From Methyloceanibacter methanicus (GTDB lineage: Bacteria > Pseudomonadota > Alphaproteobacteria > Rhizobiales > Methyloligellaceae): a DNA stretch of 64,000 nt. Under the pieces are notes generated by a model. That model was not told the DNA's origin and did no database searches. It saw nothing but the letters and a program-made list of their open reading frames with translations. This document shows, one piece after another, positions 43,242 to 63,403 of this stretch. The first letter of the stretch is position 1, and each line of letters begins with the position of its first letter. Where the stretch lies: contig NZ_LPWG01000002.1 in NCBI RefSeq assembly GCF_001723285.1, positions 62,001 to 126,000 on the forward strand, written 5' to 3'. The position numbers were made by a program, and so were the translations under genes.

Positions 43242-45017
43242 ATGTGCGGATTGTGCGGCGAGATCACGTTTGACGGCTCGCCCGCGTCGGTCGAAGCCAT
43301 GGACGCCATGACCTGCTCGATGGTTCCGCGGGGGCCCGACGGGGGCGGAATCGTGTCCCGCGGCACGTTCGCCTTCGGCCATCGGCGCCTCAAGATCATC
43401 GATCTGTCGGAGCGCGGCCAGCAGCCCATGGTCGATTCCGAACTCGGTCTCACGCTCGTCTTCAATGGCTGCATCTACAATCACAAGGATCTGCGGACCG
43501 AGCTCGAAGCACAGGGCTACCGGTTCTTTTCGACAAGCGACACGGAAGTCGTCCTAAAAGCCTGGCACGCCTGGGGTCCCGAGGCGCCGAAGCGCTTCAA
43601 CGGCATGTTCGCCTTCGTGGTCTACGAGCGCGACACGGGCCGCGTGGCCATGGGCCGCGACCGGCTCGGCATCAAGCCGCTCTACTACACGCTGAACGAC
43701 AAGCGCCTCCGTTTCGCGTCGACGCTTCCTGCGCTCGTCGCCGCGGGCGACGTGGACACGGCCCTCGATCCGGTGGGCCTCGCCCACTACATGACGTTTC
43801 ATGCGGTCGTACCGCCGCCGCACACGATCCTGCGCGGGGTGCGCAAGCTGCCGCCCGCGACGCTGCGTCTGATCGAGCCCGACGGCAGCTTCAAGGACAT
43901 CCAATACTGGGACCTCCGGTTCGAGCGCTCGGCCGAGGATCTGGCGATCAGCCATGCCGAATGGAAGGATCGCGTCGGTGCAGCGCTGCGCCGGGCGGTC
44001 GACAGGCGGATGATCGCCGACGTTCCGGTGGGCGTGCTGCTTTCGGGCGGCGTCGATTCCAGCCTGATCGTGGGCCTTTTGGCCGAGGCCGGCCAGCAGC
44101 ACCTCAAGACCTTCTCGATCGGCTTCGAAGCCGCGCATGGCGAAGCGGGCGACGAGTTTCAATATTCGGACATCATCGCAGAGCATTTCGGCACCGACCA
44201 CACCAAGATCATGATCCCGACGGAGCACATGCTCGAGGCCCTGCCGGACACGATCGGTGCCATGTCCGAGCCCATGGTGTCCTACGATAATGTGGGCTTT
44301 TACCTTCTCTCCCGCGAAGTGGCGAAGCATGTGAAGGTCGTGCAGAGCGGCCAAGGCGCCGACGAGGTGTTCGCCGGCTACCACTGGTATCCGAAGCTTG
44401 CCACCTCGAACGACGTGCTGACCGATTACAGGGCGCTGTTCTTCGACCGGGGACGCGAAAAGCTCGCCACCCATCTCAGCGAGGTCTGGATGGCCGAGGA
44501 GGACGAGCCGGCGCGCCTGGTCGAAGCCCACCTCATGAAAGAGGGCGCCGAAACGCCGCTGGACCGCGCCTTGCGCATCGATACCACGGTGATGCTCGTC
44601 GACGATCCGGTGAAGCGCGTCGACAACATGACGATGGCCTGGGGGCTCGAGGCCCGGGTGCCGTTCCTGGATCATGAGCTCGTGGAACTTGCCGCGCGCG
44701 TGCCGCCGGAAATGAAGCTCAAGGACGAAGGCAAGGGCGTGCTCAAAGATGTGGCGCGGGATGTCATTCCCTCGTCGGTGATCGACCGGCCGAAGGGGTA
44801 TTTCCCCGTGCCGGCGCTGAAATATATCGACGGCCCCGTGCTGGACATGACGCGCGACGCGCTGTCCTCCCGGGCGCAAAACGAGCGGGGCCTGTTCCGG
44901 TCCGAATATCTCGGCCGTCTGTTTGCCGACCCGAAAGCGCACATTACCCCCTTACGCGGATCGGAACTTTGGCAGTGTGCGTTGTTGGAGCTCTGGCTTC
45001 AGACCCACAACCTCTAG
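43242..45017 (+). CDS. asnO: N-acetylglutaminylglutamine amidotransferase (asparagine-synthase-like)
   Basis: 591 residues. The class II glutaminase domain starts MCGLCGEITFDG (nucleophile Cys2) and has RGPDGGG and LVFNGCIYNHKDLR. The synthetase domain has the PP-loop LLSGGVDSSLIVGLLAEAG and QGADEVFAGYHWYP. This group amidates the C-terminus of N-acetylglutaminylglutamine, giving the osmoprotectant NAGGN. The ngg gene and an M42 peptidase directly downstream make the assignment firm against ordinary asparagine synthase. Confidence 0.92.
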   Translation: MCGLCGEITFDGSPASVEAMDAMTCSMVPRGPDGGGIVSRGTFAFGHRRLKIIDLSERGQQPMVDSELGLTLVFNGCIYNHKDLRTELEAQGYRFFSTSDTEVVLKAWHAWGPEAPKRFNGMFAFVVYERDTGRVAMGRDRLGIKPLYYTLNDKRLRFASTLPALVAAGDVDTALDPVGLAHYMTFHAVVPPPHTILRGVRKLPPATLRLIEPDGSFKDIQYWDLRFERSAEDLAISHAEWKDRVGAALRRAVDRRMIADVPVGVLLSGGVDSSLIVGLLAEAGQQHLKTFSIGFEAAHGEAGDEFQYSDIIAEHFGTDHTKIMIPTEHMLEALPDTIGAMSEPMVSYDNVGFYLLSREVAKHVKVVQSGQGADEVFAGYHWYPKLATSNDVLTDYRALFFDRGREKLATHLSEVWMAEEDEPARLVEAHLMKEGAETPLDRALRIDTTVMLVDDPVKRVDNMTMAWGLEARVPFLDHELVELAARVPPEMKLKDEGKGVLKDVARDVIPSSVIDRPKGYFPVPALKYIDGPVLDMTRDALSSRAQNERGLFRSEYLGRLFADPKAHITPLRGSELWQCALLELWLQTHNL

Positions 45018-45025
45018 GCACCGGC

Positions 45026-46789
45026 ATGAGTACGGAAAAGAACAGCCCCGAAAGCGCTAGTCAGGACAGCGCTCCGCGCGGCACGACGCCGCGCGCGAAC
45101 CTGTCTCCGAAAGGTGCGCTCCAGAGCGACGTTGCGTTCGATTGCGGCTGGGGACGGCTCTTGTTTGGCCAGACGTTCACGAAAGCATCGGACGTGGCCA
45201 ATTGCCTGCGCGCGGAGGGACCGGGGCGGCGCGATATCGCGTTTTACATTCTCGATCCCCATGTGGTGCTGGCCGCGGCGCCCCAGGAACTGTTCTTGGA
45301 CCCGTCTCATACCTATCGGCTCGATCTCAAGAAGTACCAGCCCGCGCGACCGCGCCGCACCGCTTTCATAATCAGGCGGCTGAACTCGCTCCAGGACGCC
45401 GAAGAGATCAATCGCATCTATGCGGCGCGTCGCATGGTGACGATTGCACCGAACTTCTTCTGGGAGCATCGCGACAGCGAGGCCATCACCTATCTCGTGG
45501 CCGTGGACGATCAGACCAAGGCGATCGTCGGCACCGTCACGGGCGTGCATCACAACGCAGCCTTCGGCGACATCGAGAACGGCTCCTCGCTTTGGTGCCT
45601 CGCCGTGGACACCCAGTCCACGCTGCCCGGCATCGGCGAGGCGCTCGTGCGTGCTCTGGCGGAGCACTTCAAGGACCGTGGCTGCGCCTATATGGACCTG
45701 TCGGTCCTGCACGACAACAAGATGGCGATCGCGCTCTACGAGAAGCTGGGGTTCATCCGCTGGGCCACCTTTACGGTCAAGCGCAAGAACGTCATCAACG
45801 AGCAGCTCTTTACCGAAAGCTCCGACGAATACGACGCGCTCAATCCTTACGCTCGCATCATCGTGGACGAAGCGCATCGGCGCGGCATCGGAGTCGAGAT
45901 CATCGACGCCGAAGGTGGATTCTTCCGGCTGACCCATGGGGGACGCTCTGTGGCCTGCCGCGAGAGCTTGACCGCGCTGACCACCGCCATCGCCATGAGC
46001 ATCTGTGACGACAAGCGGGTCACGCGGCGCATCGTCAGGGCCGCAGGCGTGCGCGTGCCGGAGCAGATCACGGTGGACGACGACGACACCGCACGGGCCT
46101 TCCTGGGGCACTACGGGTCGGTCGTGGTGAAACCCGCCCGTGGCGAGCAGGGAAAAGGCATCGCGGTCGGCCTGACGAACTGGGACGATACGAAGGCGGC
46201 CATCGACTATGCGAAGACGCTGTGCAACGAGGTCGTCCTGGAGGAGTTCGTCGCGGGCGTGGACCTTCGGATCATCGTCATCAACTACCGCGTGGTCGCG
46301 GCGGCGATCCGCAAGCCGGCGACGATTATCGGCAACGGCAAATCGACCGTGCGCGAGCTCATCGAGCGTCAGACGCGCCGGCGGCTGGCGGCAACGGGTG
46401 GAGAGTCCGCCATTCCCATGGACGCGGAGACCGAACGCTGCCTCGCCGCGGCCGGCTACACCTACGACGACGTTCCCGAGGTCGATGCCTCGATCGCGGT
46501 GCGCAAGACCGCCAACCTGCACACGGGCGGCACGATCCACGACGTGACCGGGATTCTCCACCGGACGCTGATCGAGGCGGCTGTGTCGGCGGCGCGGGCT
46601 ATCGAAATTCCGGTGACCGGTATCGATTTCATGGTGAAAACGCCCACGGAGCCGGATTACTGGTTCATCGAGGCCAACGAACGCCCGGGCCTCGCCAATC
46701 ACGAGCCGCAGCCGACCGCGGCCCGTTTCGTCGACCTTCTCTTCCCCCAGACCGTACCGGCGACGGTGCGCAAAGCGCTTCAAATGTAA
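45026..46789 (+). CDS. ngg: N-acetylglutaminylglutamine synthetase (GNAT plus ATP-grasp)
   Basis: 587 residues from the ATG at 45026. Residues about 110-270 are a GNAT acetyltransferase (GIGEALVRALAEHFKDRG, then ALYEKLGFIRW). Residues about 300-585 are an ATP-grasp ligase with VVKPARGEQGKGIAVGL, FVAGVDLRIIVINYRVVAAA and FIEANERPGLANHEPQP. The two halves acetylate Gln and join it to a second Gln. It follows asnO by 8 bases. Confidence 0.93.
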   Translation: MSTEKNSPESASQDSAPRGTTPRANLSPKGALQSDVAFDCGWGRLLFGQTFTKASDVANCLRAEGPGRRDIAFYILDPHVVLAAAPQELFLDPSHTYRLDLKKYQPARPRRTAFIIRRLNSLQDAEEINRIYAARRMVTIAPNFFWEHRDSEAITYLVAVDDQTKAIVGTVTGVHHNAAFGDIENGSSLWCLAVDTQSTLPGIGEALVRALAEHFKDRGCAYMDLSVLHDNKMAIALYEKLGFIRWATFTVKRKNVINEQLFTESSDEYDALNPYARIIVDEAHRRGIGVEIIDAEGGFFRLTHGGRSVACRESLTALTTAIAMSICDDKRVTRRIVRAAGVRVPEQITVDDDDTARAFLGHYGSVVVKPARGEQGKGIAVGLTNWDDTKAAIDYAKTLCNEVVLEEFVAGVDLRIIVINYRVVAAAIRKPATIIGNGKSTVRELIERQTRRRLAATGGESAIPMDAETERCLAAAGYTYDDVPEVDASIAVRKTANLHTGGTIHDVTGILHRTLIEAAVSAARAIEIPVTGIDFMVKTPTEPDYWFIEANERPGLANHEPQPTAARFVDLLFPQTVPATVRKALQM

Positions 46790-46869
46790 GCGACCTCGTA
46801 CTAAACCGATAACCAATCCATAAGGGGCGCCCCGCCACGGCAAGCGCTCCAAGCAACGGGGCTTGCGTG

Positions 46870-48048
46870 ATGACTATTCTTCATATCGATCTCGACTACC
46901 TTGCCGCCACGCTCGAAACCTTCCTCAGCATTCCGAGCCCCACGAGCTATACCGACAACGCCGTGCAGTGGTGCGGCCAGGAACTGGACCGGCTCGGGAT
47001 CCCGTTCGAGGTGACGCGCCGCGGCGCCATCCGCGCCGTGCTGCGAGGCAAGGAGCGACGCCCCGCCCGCGCCATCGCCGCCCATCTCGACACGCTCGGC
47101 GCACAAGTGAAGGCGCTCAAGAGCAACGGCCGGCTGGCGGTCGTCCCCATCGGCTATTGGAGCGCGCGTTTTGCCGAAGGGGCCCGCTGCACGATCTTCA
47201 CCGAGCGCGGCAGCTACCGGGGAACCATCCTGCCGCTCATGGCCTCCGGGCACACCTATGGCGACAAGGTGGACGAACAGCCGATCGGCTGGGCCCAAGT
47301 GGAAATTCGCGTGGATGCGCGCTGCTCGAACGCCGAAGAGGCTCTCAGGCTCGGGATCGATGTCGGCGACATCGTCTCCATCGATCCGCAGCCAGAGTTC
47401 CTGGAGAACGGGTTCATTTGCTCGCGCCATCTTGACGACAAGGCCGGCGTGGCGGTGATGTTCGCCGCCCTGAAGGCCCTGATCGATGTGAAGGATCAGC
47501 TTCCAGTCGACGTCTATTTTCTCTTCACCATCGAGGAAGAAGTCGGCATCGGCGCCGCCAATATTCTGACCGAGGACATCGCCTCGCTCATCGCGGTCGA
47601 CAACGGCACGTCGGCGGCCGACCAGAACAGCTCCGAGTTCGGCGTGACGCTGGCCATGGCCGACCAAAACGGTCCGTTCGATTATCACCTCACGCGGAAG
47701 CTCGCGCGCCTATGCCGCGAGGACGACATCTACTACCAGAAGGACGTCTTCCGGCATTACCGGTCCGACGTGGCCTCGGCCGTCGAGGCCGGTCACGACG
47801 TCCGCACCGCCCTGATCTGTTTTGGCGTCGACGCCTCCCACGGGTGGGAGCGCATTCACGTTCACGCCCTGCGGTCCCTGGCCGAACTCATCACGGCGTA
47901 TCTGCTGAGCCCGATTGCCTTCTGGCGCGATGCCGAAGAGGTGGGGACCCTGGAGGACTTCACCAGCCAGCCGACCGAGAAAGCACGGCAGAAACTGTCC
48001 TCGGACGTGCGCATGGACGAAATCGAAGACGAGGCCCTCGAGGACTAG
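46870..48048 (+). CDS. NAGGN-system M42 family metallopeptidase
   Basis: 392 residues from the ATG at 46870 (a GTG lies one codon earlier). Metal ligands are recognisable in IAAHLDTLGAQ, SRHLDDKAGVAVM and FTIEEEVGIGAANIL, followed by AVDNGTSA. M42 enzymes are dinuclear-metal aminopeptidases. Next to asnO and ngg it probably hydrolyses NAGGN when osmotic stress is relieved, or trims a precursor. The C-terminal 40 residues are acidic and charged. Confidence 0.88.
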   Translation: MTILHIDLDYLAATLETFLSIPSPTSYTDNAVQWCGQELDRLGIPFEVTRRGAIRAVLRGKERRPARAIAAHLDTLGAQVKALKSNGRLAVVPIGYWSARFAEGARCTIFTERGSYRGTILPLMASGHTYGDKVDEQPIGWAQVEIRVDARCSNAEEALRLGIDVGDIVSIDPQPEFLENGFICSRHLDDKAGVAVMFAALKALIDVKDQLPVDVYFLFTIEEEVGIGAANILTEDIASLIAVDNGTSAADQNSSEFGVTLAMADQNGPFDYHLTRKLARLCREDDIYYQKDVFRHYRSDVASAVEAGHDVRTALICFGVDASHGWERIHVHALRSLAELITAYLLSPIAFWRDAEEVGTLEDFTSQPTEKARQKLSSDVRMDEIEDEALED

Positions 48049-48245: not shown

Positions 48246-49010
48246 ATGTTTTCACTTGCAGGAAAAAAGGCCCTCGTCCTTGGGGTCGCAAACGAGGACT
48301 CCATCGCCTTTGGCTGCGCGAAGGCGTTTCGCGACCAGGGCGCGGATCTCGCAATCACCTATCAGAACGAACGCGCCGAGCAATTTGTGCGGCCGCTGGC
48401 GGAGAAGCTCGGTACGGAGATTCTGCTGCCTCTCGACGTTCGGGAGGACGGCCAGTATGGCCAGCTCTTCGACCGGATTCGTCAGATCTGGGGCCATATC
48501 GATATTTGCCTGCATTCCATCGCGTTTTGCCCGCGCGAAGATCTCCACGGCCGCGTGGTGGACTGCTCGCGCAACGGGTTCATCACGGCGATGGACATCT
48601 CGGTCTACTCCTTCATCCGGATGGTCCGCCGCGCCGAGCCGCTGATGCGCCATGGCGGCAGCTGTATGACGGTGTCCTTCTTCGGGGCTGAAAAAGTTGT
48701 TGAGAACTACAACATCATGGGGCCGGCAAAGGCCGCGCTCGAGTCCGTCACGCGCTACATGGCTGCCGAACTGGGGCCCAAGGGCATCAGCGTCAACGCC
48801 CTCTCTCCCGGGCCCTTGAAGACCCGGGCCGCATCGGGAATTTCGCGCTTCGACGAATTGATGAACGAGGCAGCCTCGCGCGCTCCGACCACTCATCTCG
48901 CCTCGATCGAGGATGTCGGTGCGTATGCGGCCTTCCTTGCCAGCCGCGAGGCGGAGAACGTCACCGGCGGCGTCCACTACATCGATGGCGGATACCACAT
49001 TGTCGGATGA
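48246..49010 (+). CDS. fabI: Enoyl-[acyl-carrier-protein] reductase FabI
   Basis: 254 residues. The N-terminal nucleotide motif is KALVLGVANEDSIAFGCAKA. HSIAFCPREDLHGRVVD and the catalytic Tyr-x6-Lys in ENYNIMGPAKAALE are present. The end is SREAENVTGGVHYIDGGYHI. It performs the last reduction of fatty-acid elongation with NAD(P)H. The end of the gene overlaps the start of the DUF3141 gene by 26 bases, so the two are probably coupled. It may be a second, specialised FabI; another copy elsewhere cannot be checked here. Confidence 0.93.
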   Translation: MFSLAGKKALVLGVANEDSIAFGCAKAFRDQGADLAITYQNERAEQFVRPLAEKLGTEILLPLDVREDGQYGQLFDRIRQIWGHIDICLHSIAFCPREDLHGRVVDCSRNGFITAMDISVYSFIRMVRRAEPLMRHGGSCMTVSFFGAEKVVENYNIMGPAKAALESVTRYMAAELGPKGISVNALSPGPLKTRAASGISRFDELMNEAASRAPTTHLASIEDVGAYAAFLASREAENVTGGVHYIDGGYHIVG

Positions 49011-51354
49011 CGCCACGAACGGAGCGAACGGATATTCAAACAGCCGCGACGCTTATGCCCGTCACGCGGCGGAAGACCTGAATCGGGCACAGGAGCAGGC
49101 GAAGCTCCTCGGCGACCTCGCCGTGCAACATGGCTCGGAGCTTTCGGAAAAGGCGCGGACGGTTTGGAGCGAGCTGACCACGGACTGGGTCGCGGTGAGC
49201 ACCGGCCTCGCGGGTCCACAGGCCGCCGCCGCCCTTGCCGCCTATTGGAAAGACGCCGCCCAGCGTTGGGTGCTGACCCTCGACACGCTGCGCCGCCGCG
49301 GCGATGCGTGCGCCGCCCGCGAGGCGGAGGGTTTCACGCCCGTGCTCGCGTTCGACTACGAGATCGTCGTCGACGGGCGCTTGCTGGAACGGCCGGCCAA
49401 CTATGCGCTGGTCCGCATCGTTCCGCCCGAGGGTACGCCCCCGCCACGGGACGACCGCCGCCCTTGGGTGATCATCGACCCGCGCGCCGGTCAGGGCAGC
49501 GGGATCGGCGGCTTCAAGAGCGAATCCGAAGTGGGCGAGGCGCTGCGCGACGGTCACCCCGTCTACTTCGTGATCTTCTTCCGCGACCCGGAGCCCCGGC
49601 AGACCCTGGCTGAAGTGTGCGCTGCGGAGGCGGAGTTCCTGAAAGCGGTGCGCGAGCGGCACCCCAAGAGTTCCAAGCCTCTCGTCACGGGCAATTGTCA
49701 GGGCGGCTGGGCGGCCATGATCCTCGCCGCGACTCATCCGGACCTGATGGGCCCGGTCGTGATCGCGGGCACGCCCCTGTCCTATTGGGCTGGCAAAGTC
49801 GGGCGAAATCCCTTTCGCTATCTGGCCGGCATCGAGGGTGGTGCGGTCCCGGCGCTACTGACCTCGGATCTCGGTGCGGGCAAGTTCGACGGCGCGACGC
49901 TCATCCACAATTTCGAGCAGCTCAATCCCGGCAAGACCATCTGGCGCAAGAACTACGACATCTTCTCCAAGATCGATTGGGACTCCGAGCGTTATCTGGA
50001 TTTCGAGCGCTGGTGGTCCGGCTTCTATTTCATGAACGCGGCGGAGATCCGTTGGATCGTGGAAAACCTCTTCGTCGGCAACAAGCTGGTGCGCGGCGAG
50101 GCCATGCTTGACGACGGCACGCCGGTGGACTTGACCCGCATCGAGTCGCCGGTCGTCGTGTTCGCCTCCCACGGCGACAACATCACGCCGCCGCAGCAAG
50201 CCTTGTTCTGGATCGCCGATCTATACGAGTCGGTCCAGGAGTTGCGCGCGCGCGGTCATGTCATCGTCTACACGCTGCATGACAGTATCGGCCATCTCGG
50301 CATCTTCGTGTCCGCGCAGGTGGCGAACAAGCAGCACAAGGAGATCGCATCGGTCGTCAAGACGATCGAGTCCCTCGCGCCGGGTCTTTACGAGATGTTG
50401 ATCCACGAGGGGGATGGGCCGCCGACAGTGTCGTTCGAGGCCCGCACCATCGACGATATCCTCGCGCTTGGCGGCGACCGGAAAGAGGAGCCCGCGTTCG
50501 CCGCTGTCGCGCGCCTATCGGAATGGGCGGTCAAGTCCTACGAGCTGACGGTGCAGCCGATCCTTCAGGCGCTCGTCACGCCGGAAGTGGCGGAGACCTT
50601 GCGGCGCCTTCATCCGATGCGTCAGCAGTACACCTTCTTCTCGAGCGACAACCCCCTGCTCAGCGACATCGCCTCGCTCGCCGAGACGACGCGCGAGACG
50701 CGAGCGAAAGCCGACGAGGACAACCCATTCCTGCAGTTGGAGCGCTTTGCGGCGACCGCCGTTGAACAAAGCCTCAACCTTGCTCGCGACATGCGTGACG
50801 CTTGGATGGAACTCGCCTTCCTCGGTCTTTACGGCAACCCTTGGATGATGCGGCTTGGAGCCACATATCAGTCGCGCCCGCAGGAGCATAACATTCGAAA
50901 ACTGCCTCAAGTTCGAGATGCCGTACAAAGAGCCGAGGCGGGAGGCTATAAGGAAGCAATCGTTCGTATGCTCATCCTTTTGGCACGTGCGCGCGGCTCC
51001 GTCCGGCGCGACCGGCTGGAGCGGACAAATCGCCTGCTGCATTCGCGCGCGCCCTTCGATACGATGACGCCGGATCAGCGCGCTCGCCTCATTAGTGAGC
51101 AGAACATGATTGTCGAATTCGCGGGCGAGGGCGCAGTGTCGTCTCTCCCGGTTCTCCTGCGCGACGATGTCGATCGTGTCCGCGCGGTCAACCTCGTGTT
51201 CGATATTGTCGGTCCCATCGAGGAAATGGACGGCCGGACGATCGCCATGTTCAAGCAACTGCAATCAACTTTGTACACCATGGCCCGGGGCTGGAAAGAA
51301 CCGGCCGCAGGAAAGAGCAACGGTGTGGCGCCTGACGTTCGGGTCGGCGCCTAA
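48985..51354 (+). CDS. DUF3141 protein, PHA-synthase-like alpha/beta hydrolase (copy A)
   Basis: 789 residues from the ATG at 48985, inside the fabI 3' end. Residues about 1-130 are helical. The alpha/beta-hydrolase core (about 130-470) has the box GNCQGGWAAMI (Cys238), an Asp in VVFASHGDNITPPQQ (Asp398) and a His in HDSIGHLGIFVS (His437). This is the Cys-Asp-His triad and context of PhaC-type PHA synthases. The C-terminal helices (EAIVRMLILLARARGSVRRD onward) recall TerB-like domains. The biochemical function is unknown. Its neighbours fabI, MaoC-Pta and ackA suggest acyl-CoA or hydroxyacyl chemistry. There is no signal peptide. Confidence 0.85.
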   Translation: MADTTLSDDATNGANGYSNSRDAYARHAAEDLNRAQEQAKLLGDLAVQHGSELSEKARTVWSELTTDWVAVSTGLAGPQAAAALAAYWKDAAQRWVLTLDTLRRRGDACAAREAEGFTPVLAFDYEIVVDGRLLERPANYALVRIVPPEGTPPPRDDRRPWVIIDPRAGQGSGIGGFKSESEVGEALRDGHPVYFVIFFRDPEPRQTLAEVCAAEAEFLKAVRERHPKSSKPLVTGNCQGGWAAMILAATHPDLMGPVVIAGTPLSYWAGKVGRNPFRYLAGIEGGAVPALLTSDLGAGKFDGATLIHNFEQLNPGKTIWRKNYDIFSKIDWDSERYLDFERWWSGFYFMNAAEIRWIVENLFVGNKLVRGEAMLDDGTPVDLTRIESPVVVFASHGDNITPPQQALFWIADLYESVQELRARGHVIVYTLHDSIGHLGIFVSAQVANKQHKEIASVVKTIESLAPGLYEMLIHEGDGPPTVSFEARTIDDILALGGDRKEEPAFAAVARLSEWAVKSYELTVQPILQALVTPEVAETLRRLHPMRQQYTFFSSDNPLLSDIASLAETTRETRAKADEDNPFLQLERFAATAVEQSLNLARDMRDAWMELAFLGLYGNPWMMRLGATYQSRPQEHNIRKLPQVRDAVQRAEAGGYKEAIVRMLILLARARGSVRRDRLERTNRLLHSRAPFDTMTPDQRARLISEQNMIVEFAGEGAVSSLPVLLRDDVDRVRAVNLVFDIVGPIEEMDGRTIAMFKQLQSTLYTMARGWKEPAAGKSNGVAPDVRVGA

Positions 51355-51424
51355 GACGGCGGGAGCCTTGCCGGAGCAAGCGAGCGATTAGGCAGCGGAA
51401 TGCAGTAGACCCCAGGAGGCATAC

Positions 51425-52831
51425 ATGATCCGCGAGAACAAGCTCTACGACGAACTCAATGTTGGCGACACCGCGCAGGTCAAACGGGTGTGTACCGCCA
51501 ACGACCTCTACGTATTTGCCCATGCATCCGGAAACCTCAACCCGCTTCACATGCCGGATCCGGACGACGACCAGACGGAGGCCGTGGCGCCGTCCATGTG
51601 GGTGGGCGCGCTGATCTCATCGGTTCTGGGCAATGTGCTGCCGGGACCGGGGACACTCTACCGCTCTCAAAGCCTCAGGTTTCTCGACCGCGCCCATGTA
51701 GGCGATGAATTGACGGTTTCCGTCACGGTGAAGGAAAAACTGCCTGACTCCATCGTTGCGATGGAGACCGTCGTCACCGGCCGGGGCGGCGAGACAGTCG
51801 CCGAGGGTGTCGCCGAGGTGTTGGCGCCGGAGCGAAAAGTCAGCGTCGACATGGAGGACCTGCCCGAGATCGTCGTGCAGCGGCATCAGCATTTCGACGA
51901 GTACATCCGCGCCTGCGAGGGGCTCGATCCGCTCGTGACGGCGGTCGTGGCGCCCGAGGAAAAAGAGTCCCTGGGCGGCGCACTGCTCGCGGCGGAACAC
52001 GGCCTCATCCGGCCGATCCTGATCGGCTCCGAAACGCTCATTCGCCAGGCCGCCAAGGAGGCCGGCGAGAACCTTGGGCCGTACGAGATCATCGACATCC
52101 CCGATCATGTTGCCGCGGCCGGCAAAGCCGTCGAGCTTGTCCATGAAGGGCAGGCAGGCGCCCTGATGAAAGGCCATCTGCACACGAGCGATCTGCTGCG
52201 TGAGATCCTGAAGAGTAAGGGCGGGCTGCGCACGAGCCGCCGCATGAGCCACGCCTTCGTGATGGATGTCCCGGGTCTCGACCACCCGCTGATCATTTCA
52301 GATGCAGCCATCAACATCTCGCCGGATCTCACCACCAAAGTGGACATCACGCAGAGCGCAATCGACGTCGCGCGGGCGCTCGGCATCGAGACCCCCAAAG
52401 TTGGCGTGTTGTCCGCGGTGGAGACGGTGAACCCGCAGATCCCCTCGACGCTCGACGCGGCCGCTCTATCGAAAATGTCGGATCGCGGACAGATCAAGGG
52501 CGGCGTCGTCGACGGCCCGCTTGCCATGGACAATGCCATGGACGCGGAAGCCGCGAAGACCAAGGGCGTGACGGGGCTCGTGGCCGGTCATGCCGAGGTC
52601 CTGATCGTTCCCAATCTCGAAGCCGGTAACATGCTGGCCAAGGAACTGGCCTTCGTGGCCGGCGCCGAGGCGGCCGGTATCGCGCTCGGCGCATCCTGCC
52701 CCGTCATCCTGACCAGCCGGGCGGACGGCGAGAAGGCCCGGCTCGCATCCTGCGCCATCGCGGTGCTGTACCGGTACTGGCAGGAGCACGGCCAGCCCAT
52801 CGGGGTCCGTCTCGCGGAGGCCGCGGAGTAA
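51425..52831 (+). CDS. Bifunctional MaoC enoyl-CoA hydratase / phosphate acyltransferase
   Basis: 468 residues. Residues about 1-140 form a MaoC hot-dog domain; FAHASGNLNPLHMPDP holds the hydratase-2 Asp/His motif in modified form. Residues about 155-465 form a phosphotransacetylase/phosphotransbutyrylase domain. It has LVTAVVAPEEKESLGGALLA, GALMKGHLHTSDLL and LIISDAAINISPDL, with AEVLIVPNLEAGNMLAKEL further on. It could hydrate short enoyl-CoA and convert acyl-CoA to acyl phosphate. ackA overlaps its stop by one base. A clear Shine-Dalgarno, AGGAGG, precedes it. Confidence 0.92.
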   Translation: MIRENKLYDELNVGDTAQVKRVCTANDLYVFAHASGNLNPLHMPDPDDDQTEAVAPSMWVGALISSVLGNVLPGPGTLYRSQSLRFLDRAHVGDELTVSVTVKEKLPDSIVAMETVVTGRGGETVAEGVAEVLAPERKVSVDMEDLPEIVVQRHQHFDEYIRACEGLDPLVTAVVAPEEKESLGGALLAAEHGLIRPILIGSETLIRQAAKEAGENLGPYEIIDIPDHVAAAGKAVELVHEGQAGALMKGHLHTSDLLREILKSKGGLRTSRRMSHAFVMDVPGLDHPLIISDAAINISPDLTTKVDITQSAIDVARALGIETPKVGVLSAVETVNPQIPSTLDAAALSKMSDRGQIKGGVVDGPLAMDNAMDAEAAKTKGVTGLVAGHAEVLIVPNLEAGNMLAKELAFVAGAEAAGIALGASCPVILTSRADGEKARLASCAIAVLYRYWQEHGQPIGVRLAEAAE

Positions 52832-54024
52832 TGACGCATATTCTCACGCTCAACGCAGGGTCCTCGTCCATCAAGTTCGCGCTGTTCGAGGCCGACACCC
52901 TCGAAGAGCGCGTCCGCGGGCAGGTCGAAGGCCTTGGAACCAGCCCTCGCCTGAGCGCCCGCGTTGCCGACGCGGAAAAGACCGAGAGCGATCTCGATGG
53001 GAACGCAGTCGGCGATCACGCCTCCGCGCTGGCGGCGATTCTCGCGCTGATCGAATCTCGGTTCTCGGGTGCCCGGATCAAAGCCGTCGGACACCGCATC
53101 GTCCATGGCGGGCCGGACTATAGTGCGCCCGTCGTCATCGACGAGCAGCGTTTCGCGGATCTGGAGAGGCTGATTCCGCTGGCCCCGCTGCACCAGCCCC
53201 ACAATCTGTCAGGCGTCCGGGCCGCGCAGGCTGCCTTTCCGGAGGCCGTGCAGGTCGCGTGTTTCGATACGGCCTTCCACCGGCAGCATCCGTGGGTGAG
53301 CGATACCTACGCTCTACCGTTGGAACTCTACGACGAAGGCGTTAGGCGTTACGGCTTTCACGGCCTCTCCTACGAATACGTCACGCGCGCTCTAAAGCAG
53401 CTGGCGCCGATGCATGCGGCGGGGCGCGTGATCGTCTCCCACCTTGGCAACGGCGCCTCCATGTGCGCGATCCAGGGCGGGCAGAGCGTCGGCTCCACGA
53501 TGGGATTCACGGCGCTGGACGGCCTTCCCATGGGCACGCGCTGCGGCCAGCTCGATCCGGGCGTGGTCCTTTATTTGATGGCGGAAAAGGGCCTCTCGGC
53601 AGCCGAGATCGAGAACCTCCTCTACAAGCAGTCCGGTCTCAAGGGACTGTCGGGGCTGTCGAACGACATGCGTGTGCTGGAAGAGGCCGGGACGGTCGAG
53701 GCGCGGCGCGCGATCGACTATTTCGTGTACCGCATCCGCCGGGAGCTGGGCGGCATGGTGGCGGTTCTTTCGGGTCTCGATGCGCTCGTCTTCTGCGGCG
53801 GCATCGGCGAGAACGCCTGGCGCATCCGCGAACGGGTCTGCCAGGACCTGGGCTGGCTTGGTCTTGAGCTCGACGAGACGCAGAACCGCGAGGGCGAGAC
53901 GGTCATCTCGTCCTACCGTTCCCGTGTGCGGGTCTTCATCATCCGGACGAACGAAGAGCTCATGATCGCCGATCATGCCGCGAAGAAGGCCCGCAAAGCC
54001 GACGAGTCCGTTGCCGCCGCGTAG
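52831..54024 (+). CDS. ackA: Acetate (acyl) kinase
   Basis: 397 residues of the ASKHA fold. LTLNAGSSSIKFALFE opens the protein. GHRIVHGGPDYSAPV, ACFDTAFHRQHPWVSD, YGFHGLSYEYV and VSHLGNGASMCAI follow, with GFTALDGLPMGTRCGQLDPG and FCGGIGENAWRIRE later. It converts acyl phosphate and ADP to carboxylate and ATP. With the Pta domain upstream it forms an acyl-CoA to acid plus ATP route; acetate or propionate are both possible. Confidence 0.95.
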   Translation: MTHILTLNAGSSSIKFALFEADTLEERVRGQVEGLGTSPRLSARVADAEKTESDLDGNAVGDHASALAAILALIESRFSGARIKAVGHRIVHGGPDYSAPVVIDEQRFADLERLIPLAPLHQPHNLSGVRAAQAAFPEAVQVACFDTAFHRQHPWVSDTYALPLELYDEGVRRYGFHGLSYEYVTRALKQLAPMHAAGRVIVSHLGNGASMCAIQGGQSVGSTMGFTALDGLPMGTRCGQLDPGVVLYLMAEKGLSAAEIENLLYKQSGLKGLSGLSNDMRVLEEAGTVEARRAIDYFVYRIRRELGGMVAVLSGLDALVFCGGIGENAWRIRERVCQDLGWLGLELDETQNREGETVISSYRSRVRVFIIRTNEELMIADHAAKKARKADESVAAA

Positions 54025-54192: not shown

Positions 54193-55134
54193 ATGCGGTT
54201 TGGGTTCGGGTCAGTACGGCGCCAAGGTTCCGCCAAGCGCCAAGGTTCTGCCAAGTGCCATGGTTCCGCCAAGGGAGTCATGGCGTCTGTCGCCATCGGC
54301 GCCTTCCTGACGGGCGGCTTGGTCGCGTCCGGCGCGCAGGCGCAAGGCGTCCTGGTCGGGAGCCCGACGGGCGGGGAAACCACGGTCACGAAGAGCACGC
54401 TCGGCATCGGCGCTGCGGCCGTCGTCCAGCCGAAATACGAGGGCTCGAACGAAGTCGAAGTCATCCCCATCCCGGTGATCCTGCCGCAGTTCGTGGTGCG
54501 CGAAGAAGATCAGAACACGGTCCTGACCGAGGTGCGCAATCGCGTCGCCTTTCGGGGGCTCGACGACATCCGCATTCGCGTGCTTGGGGGCGACGTCTTT
54601 CAGGTCGGCGCGGTCACGGGCTACATCACGGATCGAGAGCAGAGCGACGGCGACTTGCTGCGGGGCCTCGGTGACGTCACGGGTGGACTGGTCCTGGGCG
54701 CCTATTCCGCCTTCACGTTCGGCGCGTTCACGTTCGACGCCGCCTATCTCGACAAGCTCACGGGCGATTCGGCCGGGCCGCAATATCGTCTTGGCATCGA
54801 GACGCAGCGGCGGTTGACGGACCGCGCCAGTGTCGGGATCCGCGTCGGCACCACGTTCGCGAGCGCCGAGTTCATGCAGACCTATTTCGGCGTGACGAAG
54901 AACCAGAGCCGCAAGTCCAAAGCGGGCCTTCCCGTCTACACCACCGATGGCGGCATCAAGGATGTCTTCATTGCCGTTGGCGGCACCTACGACATCAGCG
55001 ACCGCTGGGTGCTCAAGGGCGGGGTGCGCTATGGCCGGCTTCTGGACGAAGCGGCCGACAGCCCCGTCGTCGAAACGGCCGATCAGGTTTCGGGAACGGT
55101 CGGGCTCGCCTACCGCTTCGACTGGAACCGCTAA
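54193..55134 (+). CDS. MipA/OmpV family outer-membrane protein
   Basis: 313 residues from the ATG at 54193. Before the signal peptide (ASVAIGAFLTGGLVASGAQA) there are three QGSAKR-like units. A start at the ATG at 54280 would remove them and give a normal signal peptide. The mature part alternates like a beta barrel: GIGAAAVVQPKYEGSNE, YSAFTFGAFTFDAAYLDK and a C-terminal GTVGLAYRFDWNR ending near the aromatic residue usual in porin-like barrels. Members scaffold murein enzymes or act as porins. It is not clearly linked to its neighbours. Confidence 0.82.
   Translation: MRFGFGSVRRQGSAKRQGSAKCHGSAKGVMASVAIGAFLTGGLVASGAQAQGVLVGSPTGGETTVTKSTLGIGAAAVVQPKYEGSNEVEVIPIPVILPQFVVREEDQNTVLTEVRNRVAFRGLDDIRIRVLGGDVFQVGAVTGYITDREQSDGDLLRGLGDVTGGLVLGAYSAFTFGAFTFDAAYLDKLTGDSAGPQYRLGIETQRRLTDRASVGIRVGTTFASAEFMQTYFGVTKNQSRKSKAGLPVYTTDGGIKDVFIAVGGTYDISDRWVLKGGVRYGRLLDEAADSPVVETADQVSGTVGLAYRFDWNR
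54220..54273 (+). repeat. Three 18-bp tandem repeats at the MipA N-terminus
   Basis: Units CGCCAAGGTTCCGCCAAG (54220), a copy with one change (54238) and one with two (54256). In frame they code for QGSAKR, QGSAKC and HGSAKG before the signal sequence. A copy change would keep the frame. Confidence 0.75.
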
Positions 55135-55173: not shown

Positions 55174-57639
55174 CTACTCCGCAGCCGAGGGTACCTGGTT
55201 GGCCCCACGCAAGGGACCAAAGCCGCGGCCGGCCAGCGGATCCTTGGTGATGTCGCCGGAGATCGGCGGCAGTTTCAGGACATGCCGGAACCGTTGCAGC
55301 ATCTCCAAGGTGCTCGGTGACATTTCGTCGATCGACCCGGGCACGTATTGCGCGACTTCGGCCGCGAGCTTCCGGTCCTCCGACGACTTCAGCAGGTCCG
55401 GCAGGGTCTGGATCGCCAGCTCGCGCTCGAACTGAACCACGAGCGTCTGTTCGTCGATGATCTGGCGCCGGCGGTCTGTGTTCAGCGACCGGAAGGGCTC
55501 GTCCTCGGTGAGCACCGCACCGGCCCGCTCGAGCCGGTCGCGCCGCACTTCGCCGCGCGAGTCCGCGAGCAGGATCAGCATACGGATGACCGCCTCCGTG
55601 AAGCCGCCCTCCGAGATATGCAGCAGCGCCGACTGAACCTCGGGCAGCGCACGAAGCTCCGCCTCGTTCTTGAGCGTCCGCCCCGGGAGGTTGGGCCGGC
55701 CGAACGCCGCGGCCCAGGGCGTCGCCCACATCGAGAAGAACATGTTCTCGTACATGGCATCGCGCATGTCGCGGACGAAGTCGATGGACTGTTCGAACAG
55801 CGCGGCGAACACGTTCTCGGCCTGTACGAACGGATTGTCGGGGGCGGCAGGCTCCCGTTCTTCCTTCGCTTTCTCGGCAAGACCCGTGACACCGGCCATC
55901 ACGGGGTTGCGCCCCGACACCAGGCCCCGCTGCAGCCGCAAGGGATGCAGCATCCGGGCGAGCTCGGCGACGCCGGGATTGACCATGGCCTTCACGAAGG
56001 GCCGCAGGTAGAGATCGTAGAGTTGCGCCTGAATCTCCGACATGCGCGCCACCGCCGCGAACGGCTTCTCGTCTTCCCGGTTGTCGTCGAGCGCGCGCAG
56101 TTGATCGAGCGAGCGCTCATGGAAGCTGACTGTGAACTCGCGTCCCTCGCCATGACCGTGATAGTCGTCGATCTTCATTTCATAGAGGCCCGGCGCGAGC
56201 GACTCGATCGCTTCCATGGTGCCTGTCATTTCCGAATGCTCGCGCTTGGCGATCTTCGAGGACACGAAGATGCCGAGATGTCCGACCTGATCGTGGACCA
56301 TGTAGATGATGCGCTGTCCCCGGACCCTGATCTCCGAGGAGTCCGCATAGCTGTCCACGATCCAGTTCAAGGCTTGCTGCGGCGGGGTGATGTTGTCGCC
56401 ACGGCTCGCAAACACGATGATCGGCGAGCGGATATTCTTGACGTCGATATGGCGCCCGGGTTCGAGCGCGGCTTCGTTCTTGGCCAGCCGGTTGCCGACG
56501 AAGAGCTGCTCCACGATCCAGTGGATTTCAGCCTCGTTCAGCAGGAAGAAGCCGCCCCACCATTTCTCGAACTCCAGGAAGCGCTCGCGTCCCGTATCGA
56601 CGCCACGATACAGGTCGAAATACTTGCCGAAGTAATTGCGGCTCGGGTTGAGCAGCTCGAAGTTCAGAACCAGATGGGCGCCGTCGAACACGCCGTCGCC
56701 CAAGTCGGACCAGAACATCGGCTGCCAGGTGCCGCCCAGAACGCCGCCATTGTAGCGCATCGGGTATTTGCCGACCTCGCCGCCCCAGGTCGAGACGGGC
56801 GATCCGTTCAGGACGATGGGCCCGGTGAGGTCGTGGTTCGTGGCCGCGAGAAGAAGCGTCGCCCAGCCGCCTTGGCAATTGCCCGTGATGACAGGCTTCG
56901 GAGACTGCGGATGGCGCCGGGCGACCTCGCGCACGAATTCGGACTCGGCGCGGGTGACGGCGGCGAGCGTCTGCCCCGGAACCGGCTCGCGCCGGAAGGC
57001 GACGAAATAGACCGGATGTCCCCGCGTCAGGGCGACGCCGACTTGACTGTCGGACTTGAAGCCGCCGATGCCGGCGCCGTGGCCGGCGCGCGGATCGATG
57101 ATGACATAGGGCCGCGCCGTATCGTCGACCGTGACGCCCTCGGGCGGCAGGATCTTGAGCAGCATGTAGTTGCACGGGTGGGGCAGGTCCGCACCGTCGA
57201 GAACGACCTCGTAGTCATAGGTCAGGACGGGCGGGCATCCGGCCGCTTCGTGCTCCAGGAAGATGTCGCCGCGCTCGCGCAGGGTATCCAATGTGAGGAC
57301 CGCGCGCTGGGAGCTGTCCTTGAGATAGGCCTGCCAAGCCTCGTTGAGCCCGTCCATGTCGGGGTTCGCCGAGAAGCCCTTGGCGATGTTCGACAGCGTG
57401 GCGAGCGAGTCTTTCAGGCGCTGCTGATGTTCGCGCGAGATGCGCTCCGCATGGGTCATCGCACTGCGCATCAGGAAGGTCTGCGTCGACTGCAGGCCAT
57501 CGGAGAGTTTGGTGGCCGCCTCGACCCGCCGATTGAACATCACTCCCGGCGACTCCGAGACCGCCTTCGCGACGGAGTCGAACATGGATTCGATAACGTG
57601 ATCGGATGTCGTGCCGGCTTCGGCAACAGGGTCGGTCAT
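55174..57639 (-). CDS. DUF3141 protein, PHA-synthase-like alpha/beta hydrolase (copy B)
   Basis: 821 residues from the ATG at 57639. It is a paralogue of the gene at 48985-51354 along its whole length. The same triad is visible: GNCQGGWATLLLA (Cys255), VFASRGDNITPPQQA (Asp415) and HDQVGHLGIFVSS (His454). The N-terminal extension is different, with a coiled region around MTHAERISREHQQRLKDSL. The C-terminal EAVIRMLILLADSRGEVRRD matches copy A. It points toward the MipA gene and copy A, and is divergent from the hydroxyacyl-CoA dehydrogenase. Function unknown, as for copy A. Confidence 0.87.
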   Translation of the reverse strand: MTDPVAEAGTTSDHVIESMFDSVAKAVSESPGVMFNRRVEAATKLSDGLQSTQTFLMRSAMTHAERISREHQQRLKDSLATLSNIAKGFSANPDMDGLNEAWQAYLKDSSQRAVLTLDTLRERGDIFLEHEAAGCPPVLTYDYEVVLDGADLPHPCNYMLLKILPPEGVTVDDTARPYVIIDPRAGHGAGIGGFKSDSQVGVALTRGHPVYFVAFRREPVPGQTLAAVTRAESEFVREVARRHPQSPKPVITGNCQGGWATLLLAATNHDLTGPIVLNGSPVSTWGGEVGKYPMRYNGGVLGGTWQPMFWSDLGDGVFDGAHLVLNFELLNPSRNYFGKYFDLYRGVDTGRERFLEFEKWWGGFFLLNEAEIHWIVEQLFVGNRLAKNEAALEPGRHIDVKNIRSPIIVFASRGDNITPPQQALNWIVDSYADSSEIRVRGQRIIYMVHDQVGHLGIFVSSKIAKREHSEMTGTMEAIESLAPGLYEMKIDDYHGHGEGREFTVSFHERSLDQLRALDDNREDEKPFAAVARMSEIQAQLYDLYLRPFVKAMVNPGVAELARMLHPLRLQRGLVSGRNPVMAGVTGLAEKAKEEREPAAPDNPFVQAENVFAALFEQSIDFVRDMRDAMYENMFFSMWATPWAAAFGRPNLPGRTLKNEAELRALPEVQSALLHISEGGFTEAVIRMLILLADSRGEVRRDRLERAGAVLTEDEPFRSLNTDRRRQIIDEQTLVVQFERELAIQTLPDLLKSSEDRKLAAEVAQYVPGSIDEMSPSTLEMLQRFRHVLKLPPISGDITKDPLAGRGFGPLRGANQVPSAAE

Positions 57640-58016: not shown

Positions 58017-58877
58017 ATGGCGATCGAAATTCGCAAGATCGGCGTGATCGGCGCAGGCACGATGGGGAACGGGATCGCGCAGACTTTCGCCGCGGCCGGC
58101 TTTCCCGTCGTGATGCGCGACCTGAAACCGGAGTTTGTGGAACGGGGCGTGGCGACCGTCACCAAGAGTTTGGACCGCCTCGTCTCCAAGGAGAAAATGA
58201 GCGCGGACGACCGCGACGCGACGCTGGCGCGGATCACGGGCACGACCGAACTGTCCGCGCTTGCCGATTGCGACTTGGTGGTCGAGGCCATTCTCGAGGT
58301 GTTCGACCTGAAGGCAGCTCTGATCGCCGAACTCGACGAGGTCTGCCGGCCCGACGCCATTCTGGCCACCAACACCTCGTCCATCTCCGTGACGCGGATC
58401 GCGGCGGTGTCGAAGGACCCCTCGCGGGTCATCGGCATGCACTTCTTCAATCCCGTGCCGCTGATGCAGCTGGTCGAGATCATCCGCGCGCTCCAGACGA
58501 GCGATGCGGTTTGCGACGCGGTGACGGCCATGGTGGGAGCCGTCGGCAAGGAGGCGAAAGTCTCCAAGGACAGCTACGGCTTCGTGGTGAACCGCGTCCT
58601 GATCCCCATGATCAACGAGGCCGTCAATTGCGTGGCCGAGGGTGTCGCCACGCCCGAGGATGTGGACGACATGATGAAGCTCGGCGCCAACCACCCCATG
58701 GGGCCGCTGGCGCTCGCCGACCTGATCGGCCTCGATGTGTGTCTCAACATCATGGAAACGCTCTACAACGGCTTCGACGATCCGAAATACCGGCCGAGCC
58801 CGCTGCTGAAACAGATGTGCGCCGCCGGCTATCTCGGCCGCAAGACCGGCAAGGGCTTCTTCGACTACGGGAGCTAG
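58017..58877 (+). CDS. 3-hydroxyacyl-CoA (3-hydroxybutyryl-CoA) dehydrogenase
   Basis: 286 residues, the usual length of single-domain Hbd enzymes. The Rossmann loop is IGVIGAGTMGNGIAQTFA. ILATNTSSISVTRIA, VIGMHFFNPVPLMQLVEII with the catalytic His, and YGFVVNRVLIPMINEAV follow. LGANHPMGPLALADLIGLDV is also typical. It interconverts 3-hydroxybutyryl-CoA and acetoacetyl-CoA, with the (S) isomer expected for this family. The divergent DUF3141-B gene suggests a related acyl-CoA role. Confidence 0.95.
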   Translation: MAIEIRKIGVIGAGTMGNGIAQTFAAAGFPVVMRDLKPEFVERGVATVTKSLDRLVSKEKMSADDRDATLARITGTTELSALADCDLVVEAILEVFDLKAALIAELDEVCRPDAILATNTSSISVTRIAAVSKDPSRVIGMHFFNPVPLMQLVEIIRALQTSDAVCDAVTAMVGAVGKEAKVSKDSYGFVVNRVLIPMINEAVNCVAEGVATPEDVDDMMKLGANHPMGPLALADLIGLDVCLNIMETLYNGFDDPKYRPSPLLKQMCAAGYLGRKTGKGFFDYGS

Positions 58878-59192: not shown

Positions 59193-61011
59193 CTAGCGGA
59201 TATGGGCGGCCCGGAGCCGTTCGAGCGAGATCTCCGTCTCGTCCACGTCCTCAGGGGCGACGCCAGGATCGTCCGGCGCCCGGTCCGGAACCAGAATCGC
59301 CGCACGGGGCTTGCCATCCGCTGGCGCGGCCGGTTCGGCGACAGACGGCGACACCCCGGCCGACGCGCCGTCCGGGGCCTCCTTGGACGGCTCGGCGTCC
59401 CCTTGGGTCTGACGAGTCGGCCCCGGCGTCTTTTCGTCGAGCGGCTTCTCGTCGGACGGCTTCTCGTCGGGGGCCGTCTCTGCGACAGGCGGGACCGGCT
59501 CGGTCTGCTCGGCTTTGGCGGGCTCCGCCTCGGAGACGGCCACTTCCTCGGCGGTGCCCTCGATCACCTGATCGTCGAGCAACGGGGTGGCCTCTCCGGT
59601 CCGGTCCGCGGCCTCGTCGCCGGCCGTGGGAGCATGCACGGGCGCAGGCGAAGGGTGCGCCTCGCGCCGCATGGCGCTGGCATCGCGCGGCGGGCCGGTC
59701 CATTCCTCGATTTGGAGGGTCTCGTCAGGGCGGCCAATCGCGTCCGCCGGCGCCTTCCATTCGAACGCGTCCACGGCGCCGGTGACCGGGGACACCGGAA
59801 GCCAGCGATCCGAAATGTAGCCGTCGGCGATCCAGGCCCGGTCGCGCGGGGCGCGCAAGGCCCGGGCAAGCCATTCGCGCTCCCGTCCCTTGTCGCCGCT
59901 GCCCCCCTCGATCCGGGCCATGAGCGTGCAGATGCGCGCTGACGGGGCGTCTTGGAGATACGGCGCGAGCGCGTCGCGAGCCCGCTGCCACTCCTGCGCC
60001 TCGACGGCCGCCTGGGCCACGGCAACGGCGCCTTCCACGTCGTCCGGCGTCTGCTTGGCGAGATGTTCGACGCGCTTGAGCCGGTCCTTGGGCGACAGGC
60101 CGGGCTTGGCAAAGGCATAGGCCACGGCAAGATCAGGATGGGGCGACAACGACCAGGTCCGCAGGAGCTGCCGCGACGCGGCCCGCACTTCGCCCTTCGA
60201 GGCGAGCAGGCGGCCTGCGAGCTCCGCGGCCGGAACGAGCGAAGGCGCCAGCCGCAAGGCTTCGTTTGCGAGAATCAGCGCCTTGTTGGGATCGAACGTT
60301 TCGGTTTCGCGCGCCTCGGCGGTCAGCAAGACCGCGCGGCGCCGGTTGGCGGCCGCCGAATCCACATGGCCATTCTGCCGGGCGATGGCGAGCGTATTCA
60401 GCGCATGGTCCCAGTCGCCGGACCGGGCCTGGAGGTCGAACAAGGCATTGACGCCCAAGCGAGCTTGGGGTCGCGGTCGACCGCCTGCTGCGCGAGCACA
60501 AGGGCGGCGCTCTCGTCGCCGCGCGCTTGGCTTCCAGGAAGAGGCGCGCACGCCGAGCAACTCCGTCTCGTGGGTGTCGAGCATGCCTTCGAGCGCGCCG
60601 CGCCGCGGCGTTGTCACCCTTCAGTTGCGCGGCCTGGGCCCGCAGCAACGCCGTCAGCGGCTCGCGCGGCAGGTTGCGCTGCGCGATCCCCGCATAGCGC
60701 TGCGCCTGGGCCCGGTCGCCGACGCCGATCGCCACGAGGCCGCGCGAGAGAGCGTCGAATCCCTGCTTCTGCTTGCGTTGCCGCATATGCGCGGCGACGG
60801 CGGACGGCCGTGTCCAGATGTAGCGCAGGACGGCCCAGACCAGAATCAAGGCCAAGACGAAGATCGCGACGGTCAGAACGCCGACAAAGGCGCTCGTCTC
60901 GATCTGATAGCCGAGCCACTCCACGGTGACGGAGCCGGGCCGGTCGGCAAGCCAGGCCAAGCCCAGCGCCGCCGCGATGACGAAGAGGATGAAAAAGAGG
61001 ATGCGTGTCAT
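59193..61011 (-). pseudogene. hemY: HemY-like heme-region TPR membrane protein, several frame breaks
   Basis: The N-terminus (ATG 61011) has two membrane segments, ILFFILFVIAAALGLAWLAD and VGVLTVAIFVLALILVWAVL. It then carries the HemY motif HMRQRKQKQGFDALSRGLVA and TPR-like repeats. Frame changes occur at about 60594 (two bases lost), 60545, 60522 and 60454 (one each). The segments between read ALEGMLDTHETELLGVR, LFLEAKR, GDESAALVLAQQAVDRDP and VNALFDLQARSGDWDHAL. Restoring five bases gives 607 residues ending in an acidic Pro-rich tail. HemY-type proteins are found with heme genes; this is not the protoporphyrinogen oxidase of the same name. The breaks cluster within 150 bases. Confidence 0.82.
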
Positions 61012-61031
61012 CGGCTATTCTGTCTCTGCGG

Positions 61032-62621: not shown

Positions 62622-62677
62622 CGCATCATGACCTCTGCGCTATCGCCAATGTGCCCACGACCCCACCGAAAGACCCA

Positions 62678-63394
62678 TCACGCGCCGGACTCCAGAAGCG
62701 CGATGAGATCCTCCTCGCGCGCATATTGGGGAACGCGGGCGGCAAACCCCAAAGGCACGACGGCCTCTGCTATCGCCTTCGACAAGCAATAGCAAACAAG
62801 TCCCTTAGCTTGTGTGACGAGGCCGTAGCGTTGCACCAGGCGCGCAAAGGCACGCGCGGTCCGCGGCGACAAGAGCATGACGCCCGCGATGTCCCCGTGT
62901 TTGAGATCGTCGACAACCGCCTCGTTCAGACTCTCGACCGCATGAGAGCGGTAGAGAATCACCCGGCGCAATTCGAAGCCGCTGTCCTCCAACGCGCTTT
63001 TGAGGTCGAAGGCAACCTTCTCCGCGCCGATATGGACAAGCGGACCGTTGTCGGGATGGACCTCCCGGCAGATGAGTGGAGGGAGCCCGGCTCCCGTCCC
63101 CGGCCCGATCGTCACCTCGGTGAAGCCAAGTTGCCGTGCGGCCCAGGCCGTCGCCTCGCCCACGGCGAAGAGAGGGAGCGCCACGACGCGCTCCCGTTCC
63201 GGATGGGTCCCGAGCGCGCGCAAGGCGTTCCGGCTGGTGATGACGATCGCCTGCGCGCCATCGAGGTTCAGAGGAACGTCCTCCAAGAACTCGATCTCGA
63301 GCAGCGGGGCGCGCACGGGTTCATGGCCCAGGGCCAACAACGTGTCGGCTTCGCGTGTCGCGTCCGGCTCAGGTCTCGTTACAAGTAAGCGCAT
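62678..63394 (-). CDS. hemD: Uroporphyrinogen-III synthase
   Basis: 238 residues. The start RLLVTRPEPDATREADTL is typical, with AIVITSRNALRAL and HIGAEKVAFDLKSALEDSGF. ILYRSHAVESLNE and VMLLSPRTARAFARLV follow. It closes the tetrapyrrole ring with inversion of ring D. Uroporphyrinogen III also feeds the cobalamin block in this window. It follows hemC by 9 bases. Confidence 0.93.
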   Translation of the reverse strand: MRLLVTRPEPDATREADTLLALGHEPVRAPLLEIEFLEDVPLNLDGAQAIVITSRNALRALGTHPERERVVALPLFAVGEATAWAARQLGFTEVTIGPGTGAGLPPLICREVHPDNGPLVHIGAEKVAFDLKSALEDSGFELRRVILYRSHAVESLNEAVVDDLKHGDIAGVMLLSPRTARAFARLVQRYGLVTQAKGLVCYCLSKAIAEAVVPLGFAARVPQYAREEDLIALLESGA

Positions 63395-63403
63395 CCAGTC
63401 ACA

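Follow-up and report, generated by a model that had tools for sequence, protein, structure and literature searches.

What does a DUF3141 protein, from a family that Pfam still labels as of 'unknown function', do when its gene is set between a fabI gene and genes for a phosphotransacylase and an acetate kinase? The question is raised by a locus of Methyloceanibacter methanicus that lies in the window analyzed here, a stretch of 64,000 nucleotides (contig NZ_LPWG01000002.1, positions 62,001 to 126,000) to which all coordinates below refer. On the + strand, a FabI paralog of the NCBIfam NF005717/PRK07533 subfamily that retains Tyr155 and Lys162 (48246-49010) is followed by a 789-residue DUF3141 protein (PF11339; 48985-51354), an alpha/beta hydrolase of the PhaC superfamily with residues Cys238, Asp398, and His437. 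Next come a degenerate MaoC-like domain fused to a phosphotransacylase (NF006045; 51425-52831) and an AckA of the acetate/propionate kinase family (TIGR00016; 52831-54024). The fabI and DUF3141 genes overlap by 26 bases (48985-49010), and those for the MaoC-Pta fusion and AckA by a single base (52831). Gene coordinates and Pfam/NCBIfam assignments bear out the order, strands, and 26-base overlap given in a preliminary description of this DNA.

A second DUF3141 protein, ~45% identical, is encoded on the - strand (55174-57639), convergent with the four-gene module and divergent from an adjoining gene for a 3-hydroxyacyl-CoA dehydrogenase (58017-58877, + strand); a dehydrogenase of the same type neighbors DUF3141 in five other loci. 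This second gene is without a Pta, AckA, or FabI of its own. A MipA/OmpV-like outer membrane protein (54253-55134) is encoded between the two DUF3141 genes. Directly 5' of fabI, positions 43242-48048 read as an N-acetylglutaminylglutamine amide (NAGGN) osmoprotectant cluster, with asparagine-synthase-like, GNAT/ATP-grasp, and M42 peptidase (TIGR03106) genes, the last ending at 48048. Past the dehydrogenase gene, the - strand (59193-64000) carries genes reading like those for HemY, HemD, and HemC of heme synthesis, with one for a mitofilin-like protein after HemY.

Published Relatives of the Cluster

The preliminary description had offered the cluster as undescribed. It is already described in rhizobia and Burkholderia. 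As relayed by two later papers (PMC8231600, PMC5789663), an ORF-pta-ackA-fabI operon under phoB was reported in Sinorhizobium meliloti (Summers 1999, doi 10.1128/JB.181.7.2217-2224.1999), and the sequenced pSymA has the order DUF3141-pta-ackA-fabI. The cluster in the window has the same gene types, content, and linkage but differs in having fabI at the front and a MaoC domain joined to Pta, and PhoB control has no evident counterpart at its promoter. In Burkholderia sensu lato, clusters of phaC groups D1/D2 combine a phaC-like gene with ackA and a phaJ-pta fusion, and some of them include fabI; the authors assign genes of these clusters to phaC group D and take PhaJ to be an active hydratase and the phaC product to be a PHA synthase (PMC8231600). 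The likeness to the window is one of clusters rather than gene by gene, and the MaoC domain and DUF3141 protein encoded here differ from that reading in lacking the hydratase Asp and in failing PHA-synthase cut-offs, respectively. Further, the Bradyrhizobium diazoefficiens operon blr3456-blr3459 (pta, blr3457; ackA, blr3458), in which we infer blr3456 to be the DUF3141 gene from gene order, was up 7.2-fold in a phaR mutant (PMC10888616). In Herbaspirillum seropedicae, phaC2 is in an operon with pta-ackA and is down 100-fold without Fnr (PMC8222739, PMC5862806). This operon resembles that of the window in joining a phaC-like gene to pta-ackA, with the Fnr dependence being that of Herbaspirillum; its phaC2 may belong to another PhaC branch than DUF3141, since the paper places it alongside Bradyrhizobium PhaC2 (bll6073).

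Despite the Pfam label, DUF3141 genes have been counted as phaC or phaZ in papers: the family has been entered by classification as poly-beta-hydroxybutyrate polymerase, mentioned as a domain within a PHA cluster, and called phaZ in a genome paper. No enzyme assay of any DUF3141 member was found in the literature.

Family, Predicted Fold, and Catalytic Residues of DUF3141

The match of the protein to PF11339 is near complete (757 bits against a cut-off of 29.7, covering profile positions 1-568 of 582). It has both the GxCxGG box and the Cys-Asp-His triad of PHA synthases: Cys238, Asp398, and His437 stand in GNCQGGW, GDNIT, and GHLGIFVS, the PhaC-like contexts of the three residues having been noted in the preliminary description, and in a profile alignment they fall on Cys364, Asp519, and His547 of the canonical PhaC of the same genome. 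The triad is invariant in 75 of 75 aligned DUF3141 relatives. It should be noted that this set was gathered in part by the GNCQ motif; for that reason the triad was rechecked in full-length relatives retrieved by HMM or tblastn, where it is likewise invariant (23/23). The position after the catalytic Asp, a His invariant in 17 PhaC proteins, is Asn399 here and Asn in 67 of 75 DUF3141 proteins.

An AlphaFold2 (AF2) model built from 75 sequences (the window protein and relatives) had a pLDDT of 86.9 and a pTM of 0.84. Predicted parts are an N-terminal helical hairpin (10-114), a core (~107-463), and a helical region (~500-616). Cys238 is placed in a strand-turn-helix elbow (E233-237, H239-250), and the model has an alpha/beta-hydrolase core with a PhaC-like cap. 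The seven best VIA-align matches were all PhaC (Z 23.7-25.3, rmsd 3.3-4.5, 293-324 residues aligned) and the next was a gastric lipase (Z 21.8); in agreement, PhaC structures were the best Foldseek matches. The comparison with PhaC that had been proposed as a check thus comes out in favor of the earlier reading of fold and triad, with an alpha/beta-hydrolase core predicted and the three residues in register with the PhaC triad.

On sequence evidence, DUF3141 is assigned to a divergent branch of the PhaC/PhaZ family that is, by profile, closest to class III PhaC (E 8.5e-18, followed by class I at 3e-7 and PhaZ at 7e-6). Class III PhaC also shares with it a GxCQGG box and a GHIGIFTS-type histidine loop. 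Unlike class III PhaC, DUF3141 has about twice the length, extra N- and C-terminal helical domains, no visible PhaE partner, and Asn rather than His after the catalytic Asp.

One explanation would be a genuine PHA synthase role for DUF3141, with bulk PHB or short/medium-chain PHA made from the substrates of the operon, and both the PhaC-like fold and triad and the assignment of such clusters' genes to phaC group D (PMC8231600) speak for it. The protein nevertheless scores far below every curated PHA-synthase cut-off (TIGR01836, 28.3 against 365 bits; TIGR01838, 23.7 against 623 bits) and has no Pfam match to PhaC_N (PF07167). Moreover, a canonical PhaC and a canonical PhaZ are encoded in the same genome, which means that PHB could be metabolized without DUF3141. 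In B. diazoefficiens, PhaC1 is the sole enzyme needed for PHB even though blr3456 is intact (PMC10888616), and deletion of phaC1 alone abolishes PHB in H. seropedicae (PMC8222739, PMC5862806). By analogy, these published mutants argue against DUF3141 as a main PHB polymerase, and a true PHA synthase is considered improbable.

Alternatively, DUF3141 could mobilize PHB by PhaZ-like hydrolysis or CoA thiolysis, feeding 3-hydroxyacyl-CoA to FabI, Pta, and AckA in a low-oxygen PHB fermentation. The GDNIT and GHLGIFVS contexts resemble KDDIT and GHYGVF of PhaZ, the gene was called phaZ in one genome paper, FNR/FixK boxes lie upstream in relatives (see below), and a tree of DUF3141, PhaC, and PhaZ places DUF3141 as its own clade beside PhaZ. 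Stems in that tree exceed three changes per site, making the placement unreliable, and the tree was dropped as a means of deciding between PhaC and PhaZ. Against mobilization stand the much stronger profile match to class III PhaC, which itself reads GHIGIFTSG, and the canonical PhaZ of the genome. PHB_depo_C (PF06850) had no match in the window protein at E 0.01, but a weak similarity to the PhaZ profile is seen (the E of 7e-6 given above). A mobilizing role is viewed as rather unlikely, and acyl transfer is most likely the reaction of DUF3141.

The C-terminal region (~652-766) matched 2h5n, which we take to be a TerB-like structure, in VIA-align (Z 9.5 with 104 residues aligned, against 4.8 for the next match), while Foldseek alone gave an E of 0.39 and neither a Pfam TerB match nor a PDB sequence match was obtained for this region. 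From the model, the C-terminal domain is predicted to be TerB-like, a prediction that is new here. A short DUF3141 subfamily (loci L056, L057, L058, and L143; 593-619 aa; box YGNCQAGW) lacks Pta/AckA genes nearby, and its proteins are too short to hold this domain. Two other DUF3141 genes appear broken by in-frame stops or split frames (L059, G253:C41; L026, G187:C5).

The Accompanying Enzymes

The preliminary description found the coupling of a housekeeping FabI to DUF3141 unexpected, and that identity was rejected: the FabI encoded in the window scores 420 bits with PRK07533 as against 277 and 261 with the housekeeping models PRK08159 and PRK06505. These two models are matched by two further FabIs of the genome, of which the PRK06505 one adjoins a 3-oxoacyl-ACP synthase gene, and both module FabIs of the genome match PRK07533. 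Among 47 FabIs neighboring DUF3141, the catalytic Tyr and Lys are invariant, and 43 match PRK07533, and no other model, at 1e-108. Calling PRK07533 FabIs at 366 bits or more, above a score gap to housekeeping FabIs, they occur in 15 of 20 genomes with DUF3141 versus 11 of 279 without (p ~1e-14, an optimistic value given the relatedness among loci). From these model scores, the module FabI is classed as a dedicated paralog subfamily linked to DUF3141.

Asp and His of the D-x-N-P-x-H motif are catalytic in MaoC/PhaJ hydratases. In the fusion protein (NF006045, 634 bits) the motif reads SGNLNPLH, with Asn for Asp and His kept. Across 40 aligned sequences, the window included, the catalytic position is Asn in 31 and Asp in 7, and His is lost in 12. 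The domain is therefore probably not a hydratase, the catalytic Asp having been lost here and in most relatives, and the formation of (R)-3-hydroxyacyl-CoA by MaoC, on which the preliminary description drew, is not supported. An active MaoC hydratase is deemed unlikely and, judging from the motif, PhaJ-like hydration should not be assumed for this fusion or in the published reading of such fusions. The phosphotransacylase part is nearer to phosphate butyryltransferase than to classical Pta (TIGR02706, 318 bits; TIGR00651, 64 bits). AckA (TIGR00016, 398 bits; cut-off 293) is of the acetate/propionate type, not a butyrate kinase, and is a poor fit to a C4 route.

Recurrence of the Module

DUF3141 genes occur in ~7% of sampled Pseudomonadota genomes and on many rhizobial plasmids. 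For 20 DUF3141 loci drawn evenly across the phylum by HMM, with neighbors counted within 6 kb, Pta, AckA, and FabI were each found at 13 and all three at 12. The module was found at 0 of 31 canonical PhaC loci of the same genomes, one of which has AckA some 6-7 kb away (Fisher p 1.6e-7, optimistic for the same reason of relatedness). At least one module gene was present at 50 of 80 further DUF3141 loci. The neighborhood of DUF3141 is thus non-random, as the preliminary description would have it. The module recurs in alpha-, beta-, and gammaproteobacteria in varying arrangements (FabI first, FabI last, divergent), with CoA-transferase and 3-hydroxyacyl-CoA dehydrogenase genes as recurrent extra neighbors, and a Methylorubrum plasmid has the minimal pairing of fabI with DUF3141. 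Of the three DUF3141 genes of M. methanicus, two lie in the window; the third is on contig C4, within a complete operon that has the order DUF3141-Pta-AckA-FabI, as seen on pSymA. Recurrence in other genomes and this second copy elsewhere in the same genome indicate that the arrangement is not due to chance.

That the genes are mere neighbors, DUF3141 being an unrelated esterase carried with acetate genes, might be argued from the seven of 20 loci without Pta and from DUF3141 genes that stand alone, such as that on Rhizobium etli p42d. However, the spread of the module across three proteobacterial classes in different gene orders, the co-occurrence of PRK07533 FabI with DUF3141, and the Methylorubrum pair make such an accident of location very improbable. 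The loci without Pta indicate that the enzyme also works without it.

Motifs Upstream of the Operons

FNR/FixK-type boxes are enriched upstream of the operons of relatives, an observation that is new here. Perfect TTGAY-N4-RTCAA boxes were found in 6 of 106 upstream regions against 0.05 expected, and boxes with one mismatch at most in 30 of 106 against 4.8 expected. Expectations were taken from dinucleotide shuffles and the counts rest on relatives of the window locus. A single genus supplies five of the six perfect boxes, which lowers the number of independent events below the count, and p-values for the boxes, like those for co-occurrence, are optimistic because related loci are not independent. 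Three control palindromes in the 106-locus scan were flat, and the palindrome controls as a whole, CRP and sigma54 among them, stayed flat too. In two close relatives (L060, L062), fabI is preceded by both a Pho-like and an FNR/FixK-like box. The DNA upstream of fabI in the window has no FNR/FixK box (best, 4 mismatches) and no Pho box (best, 5 mismatches); the open frame of FabI extends well into this upstream DNA.

A Proposed Role for the Operon

The reading put forward, with a probability of about 0.5, is that the four genes make up an accessory operon of acyl metabolism, inducible by stress, that combines PhaC-like acyl transfer with acyl-phosphate exchange. Substrate, direction, acceptor, the role of the MaoC domain, and regulation in this organism are what we infer as follows. 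The Cys238-Asp398-His437 triad would probably accept a short (hydroxy)acyl group from a thioester, forming an acyl-enzyme, and would then hand it to a hydroxyl or thiol acceptor, with the outcome being either extension of a short oligomer or CoA thiolysis of a polymer or oligomer. The dedicated FabI paralog would reduce the matching 2-enoyl thioester, consuming NADH, and the phosphotransacylase and AckA together would trade acyl-CoA for acyl phosphate and ATP, an outlet for redox and energy suited to low oxygen or phosphate stress. In the lineage of the window, the MaoC domain probably has an acyl-CoA-binding or structural role and has lost hydration. Counting against this reading of the operon are the seven of 20 loci without Pta, the absence of both kinds of box upstream of fabI in the window, an AckA type that suits a C4 route poorly, and the Asn that follows the catalytic Asp. 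More tentatively, DUF3141 could represent a fifth, biochemically distinct class of the PhaC family. It would be a single-chain acyltransferase with a TerB domain, building short 3-hydroxyacyl oligomers or cleaving them by thiolysis, and its coupling to an enoyl reductase of its own and to acyl-phosphate/ATP exchange would serve as a low-oxygen valve for electrons and energy.

Taken with the FNR/FixK-type boxes, the FabI subfamily and the broken MaoC site suggest a concrete picture of a low-oxygen outlet for acyl thioesters, which would replace the assumption that DUF3141 proteins are surplus PHA synthases supplied by a PhaJ hydratase. Such an outlet would also account in part for the failure of additional 'phaC' genes to substitute for PhaC1 in mutants.

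Two features of the contig C4 copy may be added. Its FabI gene (L006 11819-12598, G000:C4) has an apparent frameshift near the start that may be an assembly error. A few kb 5' of this module (L006 273-3976), a PPK2-type polyphosphate kinase, a cation exchanger, and a SulP-like transporter are encoded; a link between polyphosphate and PHB through this kinase was considered and dropped, PPK2 being present at a handful of ~100 DUF3141 loci.
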